From assembly GCA_019638615.1 (NCBI GenBank), contig JAHBTL010000005.1:62001-126000 (forward strand): a stretch of DNA of 64,000 nucleotides. The letters are read 5' to 3'. This DNA is from Chitinophagaceae bacterium (GTDB lineage: Bacteria > Bacteroidota > Bacteroidia > Chitinophagales > Chitinophagaceae). Positions within the stretch are counted from its first letter, which is position 1. Every line of letters begins with the position of its first letter. Shown in pieces: positions 48,085 to 52,503 of the stretch. The translations under genes and the position numbers were made by a program. The notes below the pieces were generated by a model. It had not been told where the DNA came from, made no database searches, and saw only the letters and a list, made by a program, of their open reading frames with translations.

Positions 48085-48660
48085 ATGCCTCAACAAAATA
48101 AAATCATCATCATAACTGCCCCCTCGGGCGCCGGCAAAACTTCCATTGTTCATTACCTGTTGCAGAAATATCCCGGGTTGCTGGCTTTTTCCGTTTCGGC
48201 AACTACGCGCAAAGCAAGAGCTGCAGAAACAGATGGCAAGGACTATTATTTTATTTCGGAAGAAGATTTCAGGCAAAAAATACAGCAGAATGAGTTTGTA
48301 GAATGGGAAATGGTATATGAAGGAAAATATTACGGTACGCTGCTGCAGGAACTGGAAAGAATATGGCAACAGGGAAAAACCCCCGTACTTGATATAGACG
48401 TAAAGGGAGCCTTGCGCATCCAGGAGCGGTTTCCGGACGCTTCGCTGTCTCTTTTCATCGAGCCGCCTTCTGTAGCGGAACTGCAAAAAAGGCTGGAAAG
48501 CCGTGGTACGGAAACCGCCGAAACATTAGCCGCCCGTGTCAACAAAGCATCGTACGAACTTTCATTCAAACATCACTTTAATTATACCATCATCAACAAA
48601 GAGCTGAATGAAGCCTGTGCCGAAGCAGACCGGCTGATTACAAATTACCTTGCTCATTAA
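48085..48660 (+). CDS. gmk: Guanylate kinase
   Basis: 191 residues; phosphorylates GMP to GDP with ATP. The P-loop APSGAGKTSIVHYLL is near the N terminus, followed by VSATTRKAR (GMP-binding), GKDYYFISEEDF and VLDIDVKGALRIQERFP. The length is normal. It is 24 bp behind murA and probably co-transcribed, linking wall precursor and nucleotide supply. Confidence 0.95.
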   Translation: MPQQNKIIIITAPSGAGKTSIVHYLLQKYPGLLAFSVSATTRKARAAETDGKDYYFISEEDFRQKIQQNEFVEWEMVYEGKYYGTLLQELERIWQQGKTPVLDIDVKGALRIQERFPDASLSLFIEPPSVAELQKRLESRGTETAETLAARVNKASYELSFKHHFNYTIINKELNEACAEADRLITNYLAH

Positions 48661-48742
48661 TACTATATCGTACTCCGGTCCGTTACAATAGCCGGAACAT
48701 TTAAACCTGTGTAAGCGCCTGCCATTCAGTAAAATAAACCGG

Positions 48743-49059
48743 GGGGCATTTTTCGCAGGCGGGTGGTGACACCCGCCTGTAGGAGCGTCTACCGGTCGGT
48801 GTCTCACTATAGCCGTCAACTTAGGAAATCTGGCGCTTAAATACCCCGAATGGGGTTTAATTTGAATAGCCATCGGTGTAACCGGTGGTATATTTGCGAC
48901 AATTTTACATTGAACCCCGTAGGGGTTCAACAAAACTTCGGCATTGCTGTCCCCCAACTTTGTTGGAGGCTATTCAAATTCAAGCCCTTCGGGCTTAAAT
49001 TGACGGCTATGGTGTCTCACCGACCGGAAAATTTAGCACGAAAAATTCGAAATGCACCC
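48743..49059. repeat. Large palindromic repeat element, family member B
   Basis: Fills most of a 452-bp gene-free gap. The ends (about GGGGCATTTTTCG and CGAAATGCACCC) resemble the inverted ends of the MITE-like element at 15236-15410, and both copies begin with a CAGGCGGGTG hairpin (here perfect, 48756-48765 with 48770-48779). Inside lies a nested palindrome: outer arms 48792-48823 and 48996-49027 match at 27 of 32 positions, and inner arms AATTTGAATAGCC (48859-48871) and its exact complement (48968-48980) match perfectly. Small hairpins CCCCGAATGGGG, GAACCCCGTAGGGGTTC and AAGCCCTTCGGGCTT sit between. No transposase and no clean target duplication. Confidence 0.65.
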
Positions 49060-49112
49060 AAAGCCGGTAACCAGTTCTCTTTACGGCTTCAATTTATTAT
49101 TTTTGACAACAT

Positions 49113-50396
49113 ATGACAGCAGATATAGGAATATTGGTCGGTATCATACTTATTCTTTTGTTGGTAGGCTTGTTCGCGGGTATTGAAGCGGCCTTTGTAT
49201 CTGCCAATAAGTTTTCGTTTGAATTAAAAAGAAAGCAGGGGCTGAGAAGCGGCAGGATATTGTCTGATCTTCTTGAAAATCCTTCCCGTTTTATTGGTTC
49301 CATTATCGTGGGACTTGTTTTAACCGTTGTAGTATACGGACTGCTGGTAGGTTCTATTTTTGCCCCGGTGTGGAACTGGATCGAAAACAATTTTGGCACA
49401 TCGTATTCGTATATAAAATACCTCCGCCTGATTTTTGAGACCCTGGTTTCGGCTACGCTTTTGATTTTTGTGCAGCTTTCTTTCAGGGCTTTTTTCCGGG
49501 CGAAAAGCGACTCGGTTTTATCGGTGCTGGCCCAATTGGGCGTGCTGGGGTTTATTCATACGGTTTTTTACCCGATCGCTTCTTTATTTATAGGAATAGC
49601 AGAATGGATACTGAAATACCTGTTCGATGTCAAGCTGTCTGACCAAAAGCCCACCATAGCGCCTGTAGACATAGAAACTTTTATCCAGCAGAACAAAGAT
49701 CAGTCGGACAACGACCAGGATATCAATACCCGGCTGTTTGAAAACGCGCTGCAACTGCCCTCTATTAAAATACGGCAATGCCTTATTCCGCGTAAAGAAA
49801 TTGAAGCTGTGGATATCAATACGTCCATTGAAATGGTAAAGCAAAAGTTTATTGATACAAAGCTTAGCAGGCTCATTATTTATGAGAACAATATTGACAA
49901 TATACTTGGCTATATCCACCAGATTGAACTTTTCAAGAACCCAACAGAAATAAGATCGGTCATGCTTCCTATACCTGCCGTGCCGGAAAGCATGAGCGCT
50001 ACCGACCTGATCAGCAAATTCACGAAAGAACACAAAAGCATTGCCTGGGTGGTGGATGAGTTTGGCGGTACTGCTGGTATCATCACCATGGAAGACCTGC
50101 TGGAAGAAATTTTTGGAGAGATCAGGGATGAATATGATACGGATCGGTTTGTTGAAAAGCAGATTTCTGAGAATGAATATATTTTTTCGGGAAGGCTTGA
50201 AATTGATTACCTGAACCAGAAATATGGCTTCGGGTTTAAAGAAACCGCCTCCGAAACATTATCAGGCTATATCATTCACAATTATGAAATGATCCCTAAG
50301 ATCAAAGAGCGCATCATTATTGATAATTACGAGTTTGATGTTATTAATGTGAGCGATACCCGCATTGAAATGGTAAAGGTTAAAAAGCTGAAGTAA
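49113..50396 (+). CDS. CNNM/CBS-domain membrane protein (hemolysin-C family)
   Basis: 427 residues: an N-terminal CNNM membrane domain with about four helices (residues 1-150, starting VGIILILLLVGLFAGIEAAFVSA), a CBS pair (about 195-330, with CLIPRKEIEAVDIN and SIAWVVDEFGGTAGIITMEDLLEEIFG) and a C-terminal CorC/HlyC domain. Such proteins are linked to Mg2+/Co2+ efflux or metal resistance; the old hemolysin name has little support. The gliding protein GldE belongs to the same superfamily, but nothing here marks this copy as GldE. Confidence 0.87.
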   Translation: MTADIGILVGIILILLLVGLFAGIEAAFVSANKFSFELKRKQGLRSGRILSDLLENPSRFIGSIIVGLVLTVVVYGLLVGSIFAPVWNWIENNFGTSYSYIKYLRLIFETLVSATLLIFVQLSFRAFFRAKSDSVLSVLAQLGVLGFIHTVFYPIASLFIGIAEWILKYLFDVKLSDQKPTIAPVDIETFIQQNKDQSDNDQDINTRLFENALQLPSIKIRQCLIPRKEIEAVDINTSIEMVKQKFIDTKLSRLIIYENNIDNILGYIHQIELFKNPTEIRSVMLPIPAVPESMSATDLISKFTKEHKSIAWVVDEFGGTAGIITMEDLLEEIFGEIRDEYDTDRFVEKQISENEYIFSGRLEIDYLNQKYGFGFKETASETLSGYIIHNYEMIPKIKERIIIDNYEFDVINVSDTRIEMVKVKKLK

Positions 50397-50422
50397 CGCC
50401 TCAAAAAATATTTTTTTCTTTT

Positions 50423-50453
50423 TTGGAAGAATCCAAAGCCCTGATTACCTTTG
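50423..50453 (+). promoter_or_regulatory. Bacteroidota promoter of the asd leader
   Basis: TTG at 50423-50425, a 20-bp spacer and TACCTTTG at 50446-50453 match the consensus. The leader-peptide ATG begins only 8 bp after the -7 element, so the 5' leader before it should be nearly absent. Confidence 0.7.
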
Positions 50454-50461
50454 CCCGCGCA

Positions 50462-50524
50462 ATGATAAAAATGATCAAGCATACTAAGAACACAAAGAAA
50501 CAGTTCCTTACCGGGAAAGGTTAA
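50462..50524 (+). CDS. Candidate asd leader peptide, rich in aspartate-family residues
   Basis: A 20-codon frame, MIKMIKHTKN-TKKQFLTGKG, opens right behind the promoter. It contains two Met, two Ile, three Thr and six Lys, exactly the four amino acids made from aspartate semialdehyde, with the dense block KHTKNTKK in the middle. Its last codons (ACC GGG AAA GG) form the 5' arm of an antiterminator. This is the layout of thrL/trpL-type leader peptides. It would have no function as a protein; translation is the signal. A second in-frame ATG at codon 4 is an alternative start. Confidence 0.75.
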   Translation: MIKMIKHTKNTKKQFLTGKG

Positions 50525-50588
50525 AGAGTGTATTGTATGACTGAATATATTCAAGGCCTTTCCGGAAGCGGGAAGGCTTTTTACTTTT
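50511..50588 (+). promoter_or_regulatory. Attenuator (antiterminator/terminator) upstream of asd
   Basis: Terminator: GCCTTTCCG (50556-50564), loop GAAG, CGGGAAGGC (50569-50577), nine pairs with one G-U, then TTTTTACTTTT. Antiterminator: CCGGGAAAGG (50511-50520) can pair with CCTTTCCGG (50557-50565), nine pairs with one bulged G. The two structures exclude each other. The 5' antiterminator arm is inside the last codons of the leader peptide. A ribosome stalled at the Lys/Thr block leaves the arm free, so asd is read; a ribosome that reaches the stop codon covers it, so transcription ends. Confidence 0.8.
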
Positions 50589-50626
50589 AAAACCATCAAT
50601 CATTAAAACAATAAAAACCAACCAAA

Positions 50627-51634
50627 ATGAAAGTTGCGGTAGTAGGAGCCACCGGATTGGTAGGCTCTAAAATGTTACAGGTGCTTGCAGAAAGAAATTT
50701 CCCGGTTACGGAATTGATCCCTGTTGCTTCGGAAAAATCAATCGGAAAGGAAGTGGAATTCAAGGGTAAGAAGTACAAGGTGGTGAGTGCGGCAGATGCT
50801 ATCGCAACCAAACCTGCTGTAGCTATCTTTTCCGCAGGCGGAAGCACTTCGCTGGCGCTTGCACCTCAATTTGCCGCTGCAGGTATAACAGTTATTGATA
50901 ATTCCTCTGCATGGCGCATGGATCCTGCCAAAAAACTGGTGGTACCGGAAATCAATGCCGATGCTTTGACCAAAGACGATAAAATAATTGCCAACCCCAA
51001 TTGCTCCACTATACAGATGGTGGTGGCATTGAATCCATTGCATAAGAAATACGGGATAAAAAGAATCGTGGTAAGTACCTACCAGAGTGTTACTGGTACC
51101 GGCGTAAAAGCGGTTGAGCAACTGCATGGTGAAAGGAATAAATCGGTAAAAGGAGAGAACGGCGAATACCCTATGGCATACAAATACCCGATTGACCTAA
51201 ATGTTATTCCGCAGATAGATGTGTTTGTTGACAACGGTTATACCAAAGAAGAAATGAAAATGGTGAACGAAACCAAAAAGATCATGCGGGATGATAACAT
51301 ACGTGTAACCGCTACTACGGTTCGTATACCGGTAATGGGCGGCCACAGCGAAAGCGTGAACGTGGAGTTTGAAAAAGATTTTGAACTGGCTGATGTAAAA
51401 GGCCTGCTGGAAAAAGCGCCCGGGGTAATTGTGGTTGATGATCCTGCCAACGCGGTATATCCCATGCCGAAAGATGCGCATGAAAAAGATGAAGTGTTTG
51501 TAGGCAGGTTGAGAAGGGATGAGACGCAGCCCAATACGTTGAACATGTGGATCGTGAGCGACAACCTCCGCAAAGGCGCGGCTACCAACGCGGTACAGAT
51601 CGCCGAGTATCTGGTGGCCAATAAGCTGTTGTAA
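50627..51634 (+). CDS. asd: Aspartate-semialdehyde dehydrogenase
   Basis: 335 residues; reduces aspartyl phosphate to aspartate semialdehyde with NADPH, the branch point to Lys, diaminopimelate, Thr, Met and Ile. The nucleotide-binding GATGLVGSKML is at residues 7-17 and the catalytic Cys126 lies in NPNCSTIQ. The later segments VPVMGGHSESVNVEF-type (here RIPVMGGHSESVNVEF) and GRLRRDETQPNTLNMWIVSDNL are typical. It is preceded by a leader peptide and attenuator, and it starts 38 bp after the terminator T-run. It also feeds peptidoglycan synthesis through diaminopimelate. Confidence 0.96.
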   Translation: MKVAVVGATGLVGSKMLQVLAERNFPVTELIPVASEKSIGKEVEFKGKKYKVVSAADAIATKPAVAIFSAGGSTSLALAPQFAAAGITVIDNSSAWRMDPAKKLVVPEINADALTKDDKIIANPNCSTIQMVVALNPLHKKYGIKRIVVSTYQSVTGTGVKAVEQLHGERNKSVKGENGEYPMAYKYPIDLNVIPQIDVFVDNGYTKEEMKMVNETKKIMRDDNIRVTATTVRIPVMGGHSESVNVEFEKDFELADVKGLLEKAPGVIVVDDPANAVYPMPKDAHEKDEVFVGRLRRDETQPNTLNMWIVSDNLRKGAATNAVQIAEYLVANKLL

Positions 51635-51661
51635 CAATTCCAGGGAATTTTATTGAAGGCG

Positions 51662-51700
51662 GCCTGGGTTTCCAACCTTCCAAGGGTTGGAAACCCAGGC
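51662..51700. terminator. 16-bp perfect hairpin after asd
   Basis: Arms GCCTGGGTTTCCAACC (51662-51677) and its exact complement (51685-51700), loop TTCCAAG, 27 bp after the asd stop. There is no long T-run (ATTATTATATCC follows), so it may be a terminator, an mRNA-stabilising stem or a repeat unit. It is unusually long for an intrinsic terminator. Confidence 0.55.
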
Positions 51701-51843
51701 ATTATTATATCCGGCAATACCTCATAACGCTTCTTCATAAGTAATAGTAACCACTCATACATCAAACCGGTTGCAGTGCAACGCCGGACCAAAGAGCCGT
51801 GTCATCTCGTCGGGTGGTTCATTTATTATTTAAAAAGAAAGCA

Positions 51844-52503
51844 ATGAAAATTAAAAGTTTGATTTTGGCCGCCGGAATGCTGGCGTTGTTCAGTTCCTGC
51901 GAAAAGGATACTATTATAGGTGGGGGTACTGTAAAAACAGAAGACCGGGAAGTAAGCGATTTTACTAAAGTAGCTGTTGAAGGTTCTACCAACATCCATA
52001 TTACAAAGGGAAGTTCTTTTGATCTATCGGTAAAGGCGTATCAAAATCTTCTGCCCTATTTAAAGACCCGTGTGGAGAATAACACGTTGATCGTTAAATA
52101 TGAAAACAGTACGAGTGTAGGAAATGACAATTCGCAGGTGTTTATTACCATGCCTGTGCTGGAAGGGTTAAGCGCTACAGGAAGCGGAGATATAGATGTA
52201 AAGGGCGTTTTTGAGCATACGCCGGACTTTGACGCGCACATCAGCGGGTCGTCGGACATCAGTATTGAGCATGCCCGGGCTGAAAACCTTGTGCTATCCA
52301 TTTCAGGCAGCGGCGATTTTAAAAGTTTTGGACTTTCTATTGAAGAAGCAAATGTTTCTATATCGGGCAGCGGAGAGGTTGAAATAACTGTGAATAAAAA
52401 ATTAAAAGCGAATATCAGCGGCAGTGGTAATGTCTTTTACAAAGGGAACCCCATTATGATAGACAACAATATCAGCGGCAGCGGCAAAGTAATAAAGAAG
52501 TAG
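51844..52503 (+). CDS. DUF2807 (GIN domain) lipoprotein
   Basis: 219 residues from the ATG at 51844 (MKIKSLILAAG), preferred over an upstream extension into spacer. The lipobox region LALFSSC gives a lipidated N terminus, so the protein sits in the envelope. The body is a right-handed beta-helix-like domain with recurring GSG turns (SATGSGDIDVKG, SISGSGDFKSFG, SISGSGEVEITV, NISGSGNVFYKG, NISGSGKV), the hallmark of DUF2807. Function unknown; a structural or adhesive surface role is inference. Confidence 0.88.
   Translation: MKIKSLILAAGMLALFSSCEKDTIIGGGTVKTEDREVSDFTKVAVEGSTNIHITKGSSFDLSVKAYQNLLPYLKTRVENNTLIVKYENSTSVGNDNSQVFITMPVLEGLSATGSGDIDVKGVFEHTPDFDAHISGSSDISIEHARAENLVLSISGSGDFKSFGLSIEEANVSISGSGEVEITVNKKLKANISGSGNVFYKGNPIMIDNNISGSGKVIKK

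Follow-up and report, generated by a model that had tools for sequence, protein, structure and literature searches.

The window analyzed here is a 64,000-nucleotide stretch of a Chitinophagaceae genome, and all coordinates below count from its first base. The family comprises bacteria of soil and water. The window carries asd, the gene for aspartate-semialdehyde dehydrogenase, which catalyzes a shared step of lysine, threonine, and methionine synthesis; its product scores 440 bits against the NCBIfam model asd_B (TIGR01296; cut-off, 324 bits) and has a single match in its own genome at an E value of ≤0.001. Read 5′ to 3′, the locus consists of a Bacteroidota-type promoter, a 20-codon frame, an intrinsic terminator, and asd. 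The features, including the RNA segments A to G discussed below, are as follows.

50422–50453, plus strand: promoter, with a −33-like TTTG (50422–50425), 20 bp, and a −7 box, TACCTTTG (50446–50453)
50462–50524, plus strand: leader peptide frame MIKMIKHTKNTKKQFLTGKG, ATG at 50462 and TAA at 50522–50524, starting some 4 nt into the predicted RNA
50480–50493, plus strand: segment A, in leader codons HTKNT, 5′ arm of the protector helix (fold, covariation)
50504–50508, plus strand: segment B, 5′ arm of a small hairpin inside the protector, with its 3′ arm at 50513–50517 (fold)
50511–50522, plus strand: segment C, CCGGGAAAGGTT, 5′ arm of the antiterminator (fold, covariation)
50528–50539, plus strand: segment D, GTGTATTGTATG, pairing with A as the 3′ arm of the protector, or with E as the 5′ arm of a hairpin (fold, covariation)
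50544–50552, plus strand: segment E, AATATATTC, pairing with D within the antiterminator (fold)
50553–50564, plus strand: segment F, pairing with C (antiterminator) or G (terminator) (fold, covariation)
50569–50582, plus strand: segment G (50569–50580) and T-run (50578–50582), 3′ arm of the intrinsic terminator
50627–51634, plus strand: asd, the putative regulated gene

A preliminary description of this DNA had claimed a consensus promoter and a 20-codon frame holding two Met, two Ile, three Thr, and six Lys codons; the promoter is present as listed, and the composition of the frame is as claimed. We take the TTTG at 50422 to 50425 to be the −33 element. Passages of a study of Flavobacterium psychrophilum place a TAnnTTTG consensus at −12 to −5 and report Shine-Dalgarno sequences to be absent from that organism (PMC9723704). 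With the box placed at −12 to −5 by this rule, transcription is predicted to start near 50458, which would put only some 4 nt of untranslated RNA before the leader frame. A pattern script located the promoter box 4 to 10 nt 5′ of the leader ATG in 80 of 97 collected copies of the element, the other 17 having a different box-to-ATG distance or no box that the script's pattern recognizes.

Two further features border on or overlap the element. On the minus strand, a 90-amino-acid open frame (50327–50599) overlaps the attenuator region, and nothing marks it as a gene. Just 3′ of asd, positions 51662 to 51700 form a long, near-perfect inverted repeat, GCCTGGGTTTCCAACC...GGTTGGAAACCCAGGC, which draws a weak, spurious Rfam microRNA match and may represent a repeat element or else the terminator of asd.

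Alternative structures of the leader RNA

The predicted transcript from 50459 to 50586 folds at −35.5 kcal/mol (z = −4.59), a stability equaled by none of 200 dinucleotide shuffles. In this full-length fold, A pairs with D around the B:C hairpin, and F pairs with G to form the terminator. When A is removed, D is predicted to pair with E instead, and the stretch from 50505 to 50565, folded alone, adopts the antiterminator, C:F around D:E. Segment C shares bases with the arm that pairs with B in the small hairpin and also with the final leader codons. The antiterminator arm previously placed at 50511 to 50520 was found there (CCGGGAAAGG), and a hairpin followed by a T-run does exist as described; its stem, given earlier as 9 bp, has 12 pairs in the predicted fold (50553–50564 with 50569–50580). 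The preliminary description had recognized C, F, and G and had overlooked the protector, A (50480–50493) with D (50528–50539) around the hairpin at 50504 to 50517.

The same arrangement recurs among 39 single-sequence folds. F:G forms in all 39, in each case between the leader frame and asd, and A:D forms with at least 6 pairs in 38, the one exception (L007) having four A:D pairs only. Folded alone, the stretch from C to F gives at least 8 C:F pairs in 39 of 39. As controls, shuffling D still yielded at least 9 A:D pairs in 32% of cases, and shuffling C still yielded at least 8 C:F pairs in 19%. In all 39, the stop codon has its first base between −6 and +15 nt relative to the start of C, a statement of geometry only; on that geometry, a ribosome terminating at the stop codon would cover C.

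Because RNAalifold on a plain MAFFT alignment (A1) returned almost no structure (−0.74 kcal/mol), probably a consequence of helix arms shifting register, covariation was assessed by swapping partners and on alignments fitted to the model. Among 54 dereplicated copies, own partners paired more favorably than swapped ones (in kcal/mol, −10.8 versus −7.5 for A:D, −12.2 versus −11.3 for C:F, and −16.9 versus −13.9 for F:G), and none of 10,000 permutations was as good for any of these three helices. The smaller set of 29 dereplicated copies behaved likewise (−12.9 versus −9.4, −14.7 versus −12.9, and −18.5 versus −15.9, respectively; 0 of 10,000 permutations each), with B:C at −7.7 versus −6.7 and 7 of 10,000 permutations as good; these permutation tests take no account of relatedness among copies. 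In an alignment of 97 sequences, which was fitted to the structure and hence is biased towards it, two-sided changes occur in 23 of the 26 pairs of the OFF structure, and 90.5% of the cells pair, compared with 78.3% after shuffling, a level reached by 0 of 500 shuffles. The covarying alternative pairings anticipated for close relatives are therefore present, own partners outdoing swapped ones for A:D, C:F, and F:G. As judged from these comparisons, the antiterminator would exclude the terminator, the protector would exclude the antiterminator, and the helices appear to be conserved by covariation.

Distribution of the element

The unit lies 5′ of asd in 74 of 84 Chitinophagaceae genomes examined, which are part of a family set (asd in 184 of 195 genomes) and are weighted towards the more similar ones. 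A first set comprised the 39 genomes with the most similar Asd proteins, 12 of the same genus (our own included) and 27 others of the family, and all 39 carry the unit. Built on 11 of the 12 sequences of that genus, the covariance model R1 recovered each of the remaining 28 copies in this set at E values of ≤5e−5. The second set, 40 loci hand-picked down the match list (L175–L214) plus L147, L148, L150, L154, and L215 (L146 is from the same genome as L193), yielded the unit in 35 of 45 further family genomes. It was absent at asd in ten (G017, G025, G041, G051, G055, G100, G103, G116, G123, and G190).

Outside the family, none of 38 asd upstream regions matched at an E value of ≤0.1; these came from nearer relatives (L149, L151–L153, L155–L174, L216–L228, and L234), and a strongly diverged version could escape such a search. 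Scans of whole genomes, run with stricter filters at which weak matches are lost, gave matches at E values of ≤0.001 in 18 of 395 genomes drawn from the phylum (11 within the family and 7 outside) and in 64 of 298 genomes of the order (55 within the family and 9 outside, the latter at 5.5e−5 to 9.2e−4). All matches below 1e−4 in the phylum scan fall in Chitinophagaceae.

Among 80 asd loci from named organisms or labeled metagenome-assembled genomes, one of which (L294) ends 84 bases upstream of asd, 26 have the unit. The carriers include Niastella yeongjuensis, Niabella ginsengisoli, Limnovirga soli, and Sediminibacterium roseum, as well as metagenome-assembled genomes labeled Flavihumibacter, Parafilimonas, Filimonas, and Chitinophaga pinensis. 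Niabella ginsengisoli (now Paraniabella) is a member of Chitinophagaceae, to which we also assign the other carrier genera; these named relatives support Chitinophagaceae as the family. Within this 80-locus set, no match was found at the asd loci of Mucilaginibacter, Pedobacter, Sphingobacterium, Spirosoma, Hymenobacter, and Flavobacterium or at four loci with Chitinophagaceae-like labels (L313, L316, L322, and L332).

Intergenic terminators are common, and our scans also gave weak matches at unrelated places, as might be expected if a constitutive terminator stood beside a chance frame with no regulatory role. Such a coincidence is hardly credible here: the helices covary, the frame is open across the family, and the unit stays with asd even though the DNA further upstream varies among members of the genus.

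Codon content of the leader peptide

An open frame, 13 to 23 codons long, is present in all 97 collected copies, bearing out the expectation of a leader frame in relatives. When a copy offered more than one, the script selected the frame with the highest Lys plus Thr content; the frame used was the one set by the alignment in 94 of 97 copies and a different one in 3. Every leader has at least 3 Lys codons; Thr occurs in 92 and is lacking in 5.

In 63 dereplicated leaders compared with shuffles of their own bases (a later ATG being used for L014 and L189, here and in the alignment-frame count), Lys was strongly enriched (285 versus 159; z = 14.8) and Thr less so (138 versus 98; z = 4.8). Also enriched were Met (48 versus 18; z = 7.4), His (70 versus 34; z = 6.2), Phe (z = 4.5), and Gly (z = 4.2), and Arg (z = −3.4), Asn, Glu, Tyr, and Asp were depleted. 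The His, Gly, and Phe enrichment may stem from the pairing that segments A and C undergo. Ile was not enriched (89 versus 83; z = 0.8, or 0.0 in the alignment frame only). Restricting the count to the alignment frame (60 dereplicated leaders) left z values of 13.9 for Lys and 4.2 for Thr. The original proposal that the leader senses the aspartate family of amino acids therefore narrows, with Met enriched and Ile not, to Lys and probably Thr.

An alternative is that lysine alone is sensed and that the Thr codons are kept mainly for A:D pairing, a view that fits the presence of at least 3 Lys codons in 97 of 97 leaders, yet no Thr in 5. The fourth core codon, located in 85 leaders, reads ACN in 48 of them, Ile in 14, Asn in 6, Lys in 5, Ser in 5, and others in 7, and the third base of the ACN codons takes all four values (A, 23; C, 10; G, 10; T, 5). 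Such synonymous variation suggests selection for Thr itself. No pair of the model includes this codon, but 23 of 37 single folds, that of the window included, pair one or more of its bases (in L024, if not in others, the script put the codon in the wrong place), so that pairing may share in its conservation. We regard sensing of lysine alone as rather unlikely on this evidence.

Conservation of the core invites a different explanation, in which the nascent peptide KHTKRTKK stalls the ribosome itself and senses something besides charged tRNA. In 44 core-bearing leaders, His is found at one core position in 34 and Arg at another in 25 (the position table selects leaders by Lys at two positions, and Lys there is no evidence). 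However, divergent leaders such as MNTIIIIKSKKMIS, MIQHTTIIKKHMIKRSGQEG, and MINFTNTTIKTIKGFPRGKA keep the composition and not the sequence, and the codons for the core residues fall in an RNA segment that is itself paired. An arrest peptide is accordingly very improbable, and the codon content as a whole is best read as a sensor of charged tRNA-Lys and probably also of charged tRNA-Thr, with Lys being the more constant sensor codon.

Related leaders at dapA, hisG, and other genes

Close copies of the asd attenuator precede a second gene in six genomes (L073, L076, L086, L087, L090, and L091). From its sequence, we take this gene to be dapA, encoding the first enzyme of the lysine branch. The six were found among 36 dapA upstream regions, a nonrandom set that includes 30 chosen as the closest to an element-bearing dapA and two taken for their match; dapA of our own genome (L229) has no leader. 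The dapA leaders (e.g., MQLIKKHTKRVKKHSVYREG) have 3 to 5 Lys codons each and one or two Thr codons outside the fourth core codon. That Lys is kept at dapA is consistent with sensing of lysine alone, but where a genome has both copies (six cases), the fourth core codon reads Val or Ser at every dapA and Thr at five of the six asd loci, a difference resting on few, related cases and accompanied by other Thr codons that remain at dapA.

A further version precedes hisG within the same genus. By eye, 11 of 12 loci (L235–L246) have a leader with a run of His codons and, after it, a C/F/G arrangement that is similar in layout but made of other bases, the remaining locus (L245) being one that could not be placed; our own genome's hisG leader (L238, G000:C34 near 75300) reads MIITTHHHHHILPSR. 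The model R2 recognizes 7 of the 12 hisG loci, mostly weakly. It appears from these sequences that the organism uses the leader-attenuator class elsewhere too, hisG being one example.

Thirteen places from the order scan were inspected, namely, eight second matches in family genomes and five of the nine outside the family. Five precede dapA, one precedes hisG, and the other seven (L079–L085) were dismissed as chance or ambiguous, by sequence alone. One of these seven (L084, positions 701 to 825; G370, same order, other family) is a weak match in which a Lys/Thr-rich frame that starts MNIIIKHKTKT stands before a terminator, with no long frame following on the same strand. Within our own genome, the best further match to the RNA model, on C23 (E = 0.004), was rejected as lying between two unrelated genes, and the other two lie on C4 and C36, with E values of 0.39 and 0.86.

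Separately, a frame of about 820 amino acids that we take to encode a fused aspartokinase-homoserine dehydrogenase has a Thr/Ile-rich leader of its own, which reads MVLLSSITLSSLAAGIAGRSTIITTTTITTLV in our own genome (L120, G000:C19 near 34700, minus strand) and is seen also at L117–L119, L121–L124, and L126. A conserved GAGGGT...TGGGC stretch follows this leader, and no T-run terminator was seen by eye. The out-of-family matches inspected from the phylum scan comprise eight rows from seven genomes (L254–L260 and L262). Two of these weak matches resemble leader attenuators of other kinds, one with an Ile/Val-rich frame before what is presumably an ilvD-like gene (L257, G615) and one with a Cys-rich frame before a presumed cobA/cysG-like gene (L256, G755); the rest look like plain terminators or are ambiguous.

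Comparison with known regulatory systems

The thrL attenuator of the Escherichia coli thr operon senses threonine and isoleucine, two amino acids at once. Like thrL and the trpL, hisL, and ilvL attenuators, the asd element has a short leader frame with codons for amino acids of the pathway, and it resembles thrL-type attenuators further in its mutually exclusive protector, antiterminator, and terminator, in the intrinsic terminator before the first structural gene, and in the proposed sensing of more than one amino acid. It differs in that the most constant sensor codon is Lys, together with Thr; in that the target is asd, ahead of the branch to lysine, threonine, and methionine; in that the leader follows a TAnnTTTG promoter and starts some 4 nt into the predicted transcript; and in that, among the genomes examined, the unit is found at asd only in Chitinophagaceae.

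The lysine riboswitch, or L-box, controls lysine-pathway genes through transcription termination, the kind of control predicted for the asd element. A conserved, structured RNA with a terminator before a lysine-pathway gene could be a small-molecule riboswitch, for lysine for instance, in which the frame is incidental. A search of positions 48500 to 52000 with Rfam release 15, which includes the Thr leader and the lysine riboswitch, left the element unmatched up to an E value of 5; the three matches obtained at that limit all lie 3′ of asd and below their gathering scores. The frame, moreover, is open in 97 of 97 copies and contains a synonymously varying Thr codon, and hisG has a similar layout with His codons. 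A riboswitch is on these grounds highly improbable, and the proposed sensing by codons, rather than by an aptamer, sets the asd element apart from the L-box. Passages of one paper treat the L-box as the means of lysine control outside Actinobacteria and describe no conserved RNA structure before the lysine or threonine operons of Actinobacteria (PMC1262725).

Within the phylum, leader-peptide attenuation has been suggested before amino acid biosynthesis operons in parts of the F. psychrophilum study, where pheA and hisG have conserved, structured 5′ elements without Rfam hits (PMC9723704). Those elements share both the phylum and the type of operon with ours. The main text of that study has no occurrence of "lysine" or "threonine," and its parts on attenuation do not name asd (PMC9723704). 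Our search of the open literature found no description of an asd leader-peptide attenuator, of a leader attenuator with Lys codons, or of the control of lysine or threonine synthesis in Chitinophagaceae. The principle of attenuation is classical; the target, asd, the Lys/Thr sensor, and the bacterial group appear to be new.

Model and implications

The features of the attenuator class found at this locus are a leader with its own start and stop codons, codons for end products of the pathway, a terminator, mutually exclusive helices, and the geometry of the stop codon. We consider it very probable, from this combination, that the asd element is a ribosome-mediated transcription attenuator; it most likely responds to the charging of tRNA-Lys and probably of tRNA-Thr.

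We infer that the element is transcribed, its leader translated, and transcription terminated, with ribosome stalling as the response to Lys and Thr supply, along the following lines. RNA polymerase would start near 50458, and a ribosome would begin at 50462, only a few nucleotides into the transcript. With ample Lys-tRNA and Thr-tRNA, the ribosome would get to the stop codon and cover C; the F:G terminator would then form, and asd would not be transcribed. A ribosome waiting at Lys or Thr codons would instead cover A and so block the protector formed by A:D and B:C, in which case C:F would form around D:E, prevent the terminator, and allow transcription of asd. If the leader were not translated at all, A:D and B:C would form and the terminator with them.

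A broader reading, which we advance tentatively and judge to be close to evenly balanced, is that Chitinophagaceae have a single platform that is reprogrammed by the codons in its paired segment, with Lys and Thr, the end products of two branches, at asd, mainly Lys at dapA, and His at hisG. On that reading, asd would have a two-input gate at the branch point, and the element would be the first leader-peptide attenuator with lysine codons.

The asd element merits an entry in Rfam. About a hundred natural variants, together with the codon changes at dapA and the His version at hisG, make the sensing of tRNA charge testable in this phylum, and the element would add lysine to the amino acids that are sensed by leader peptides.
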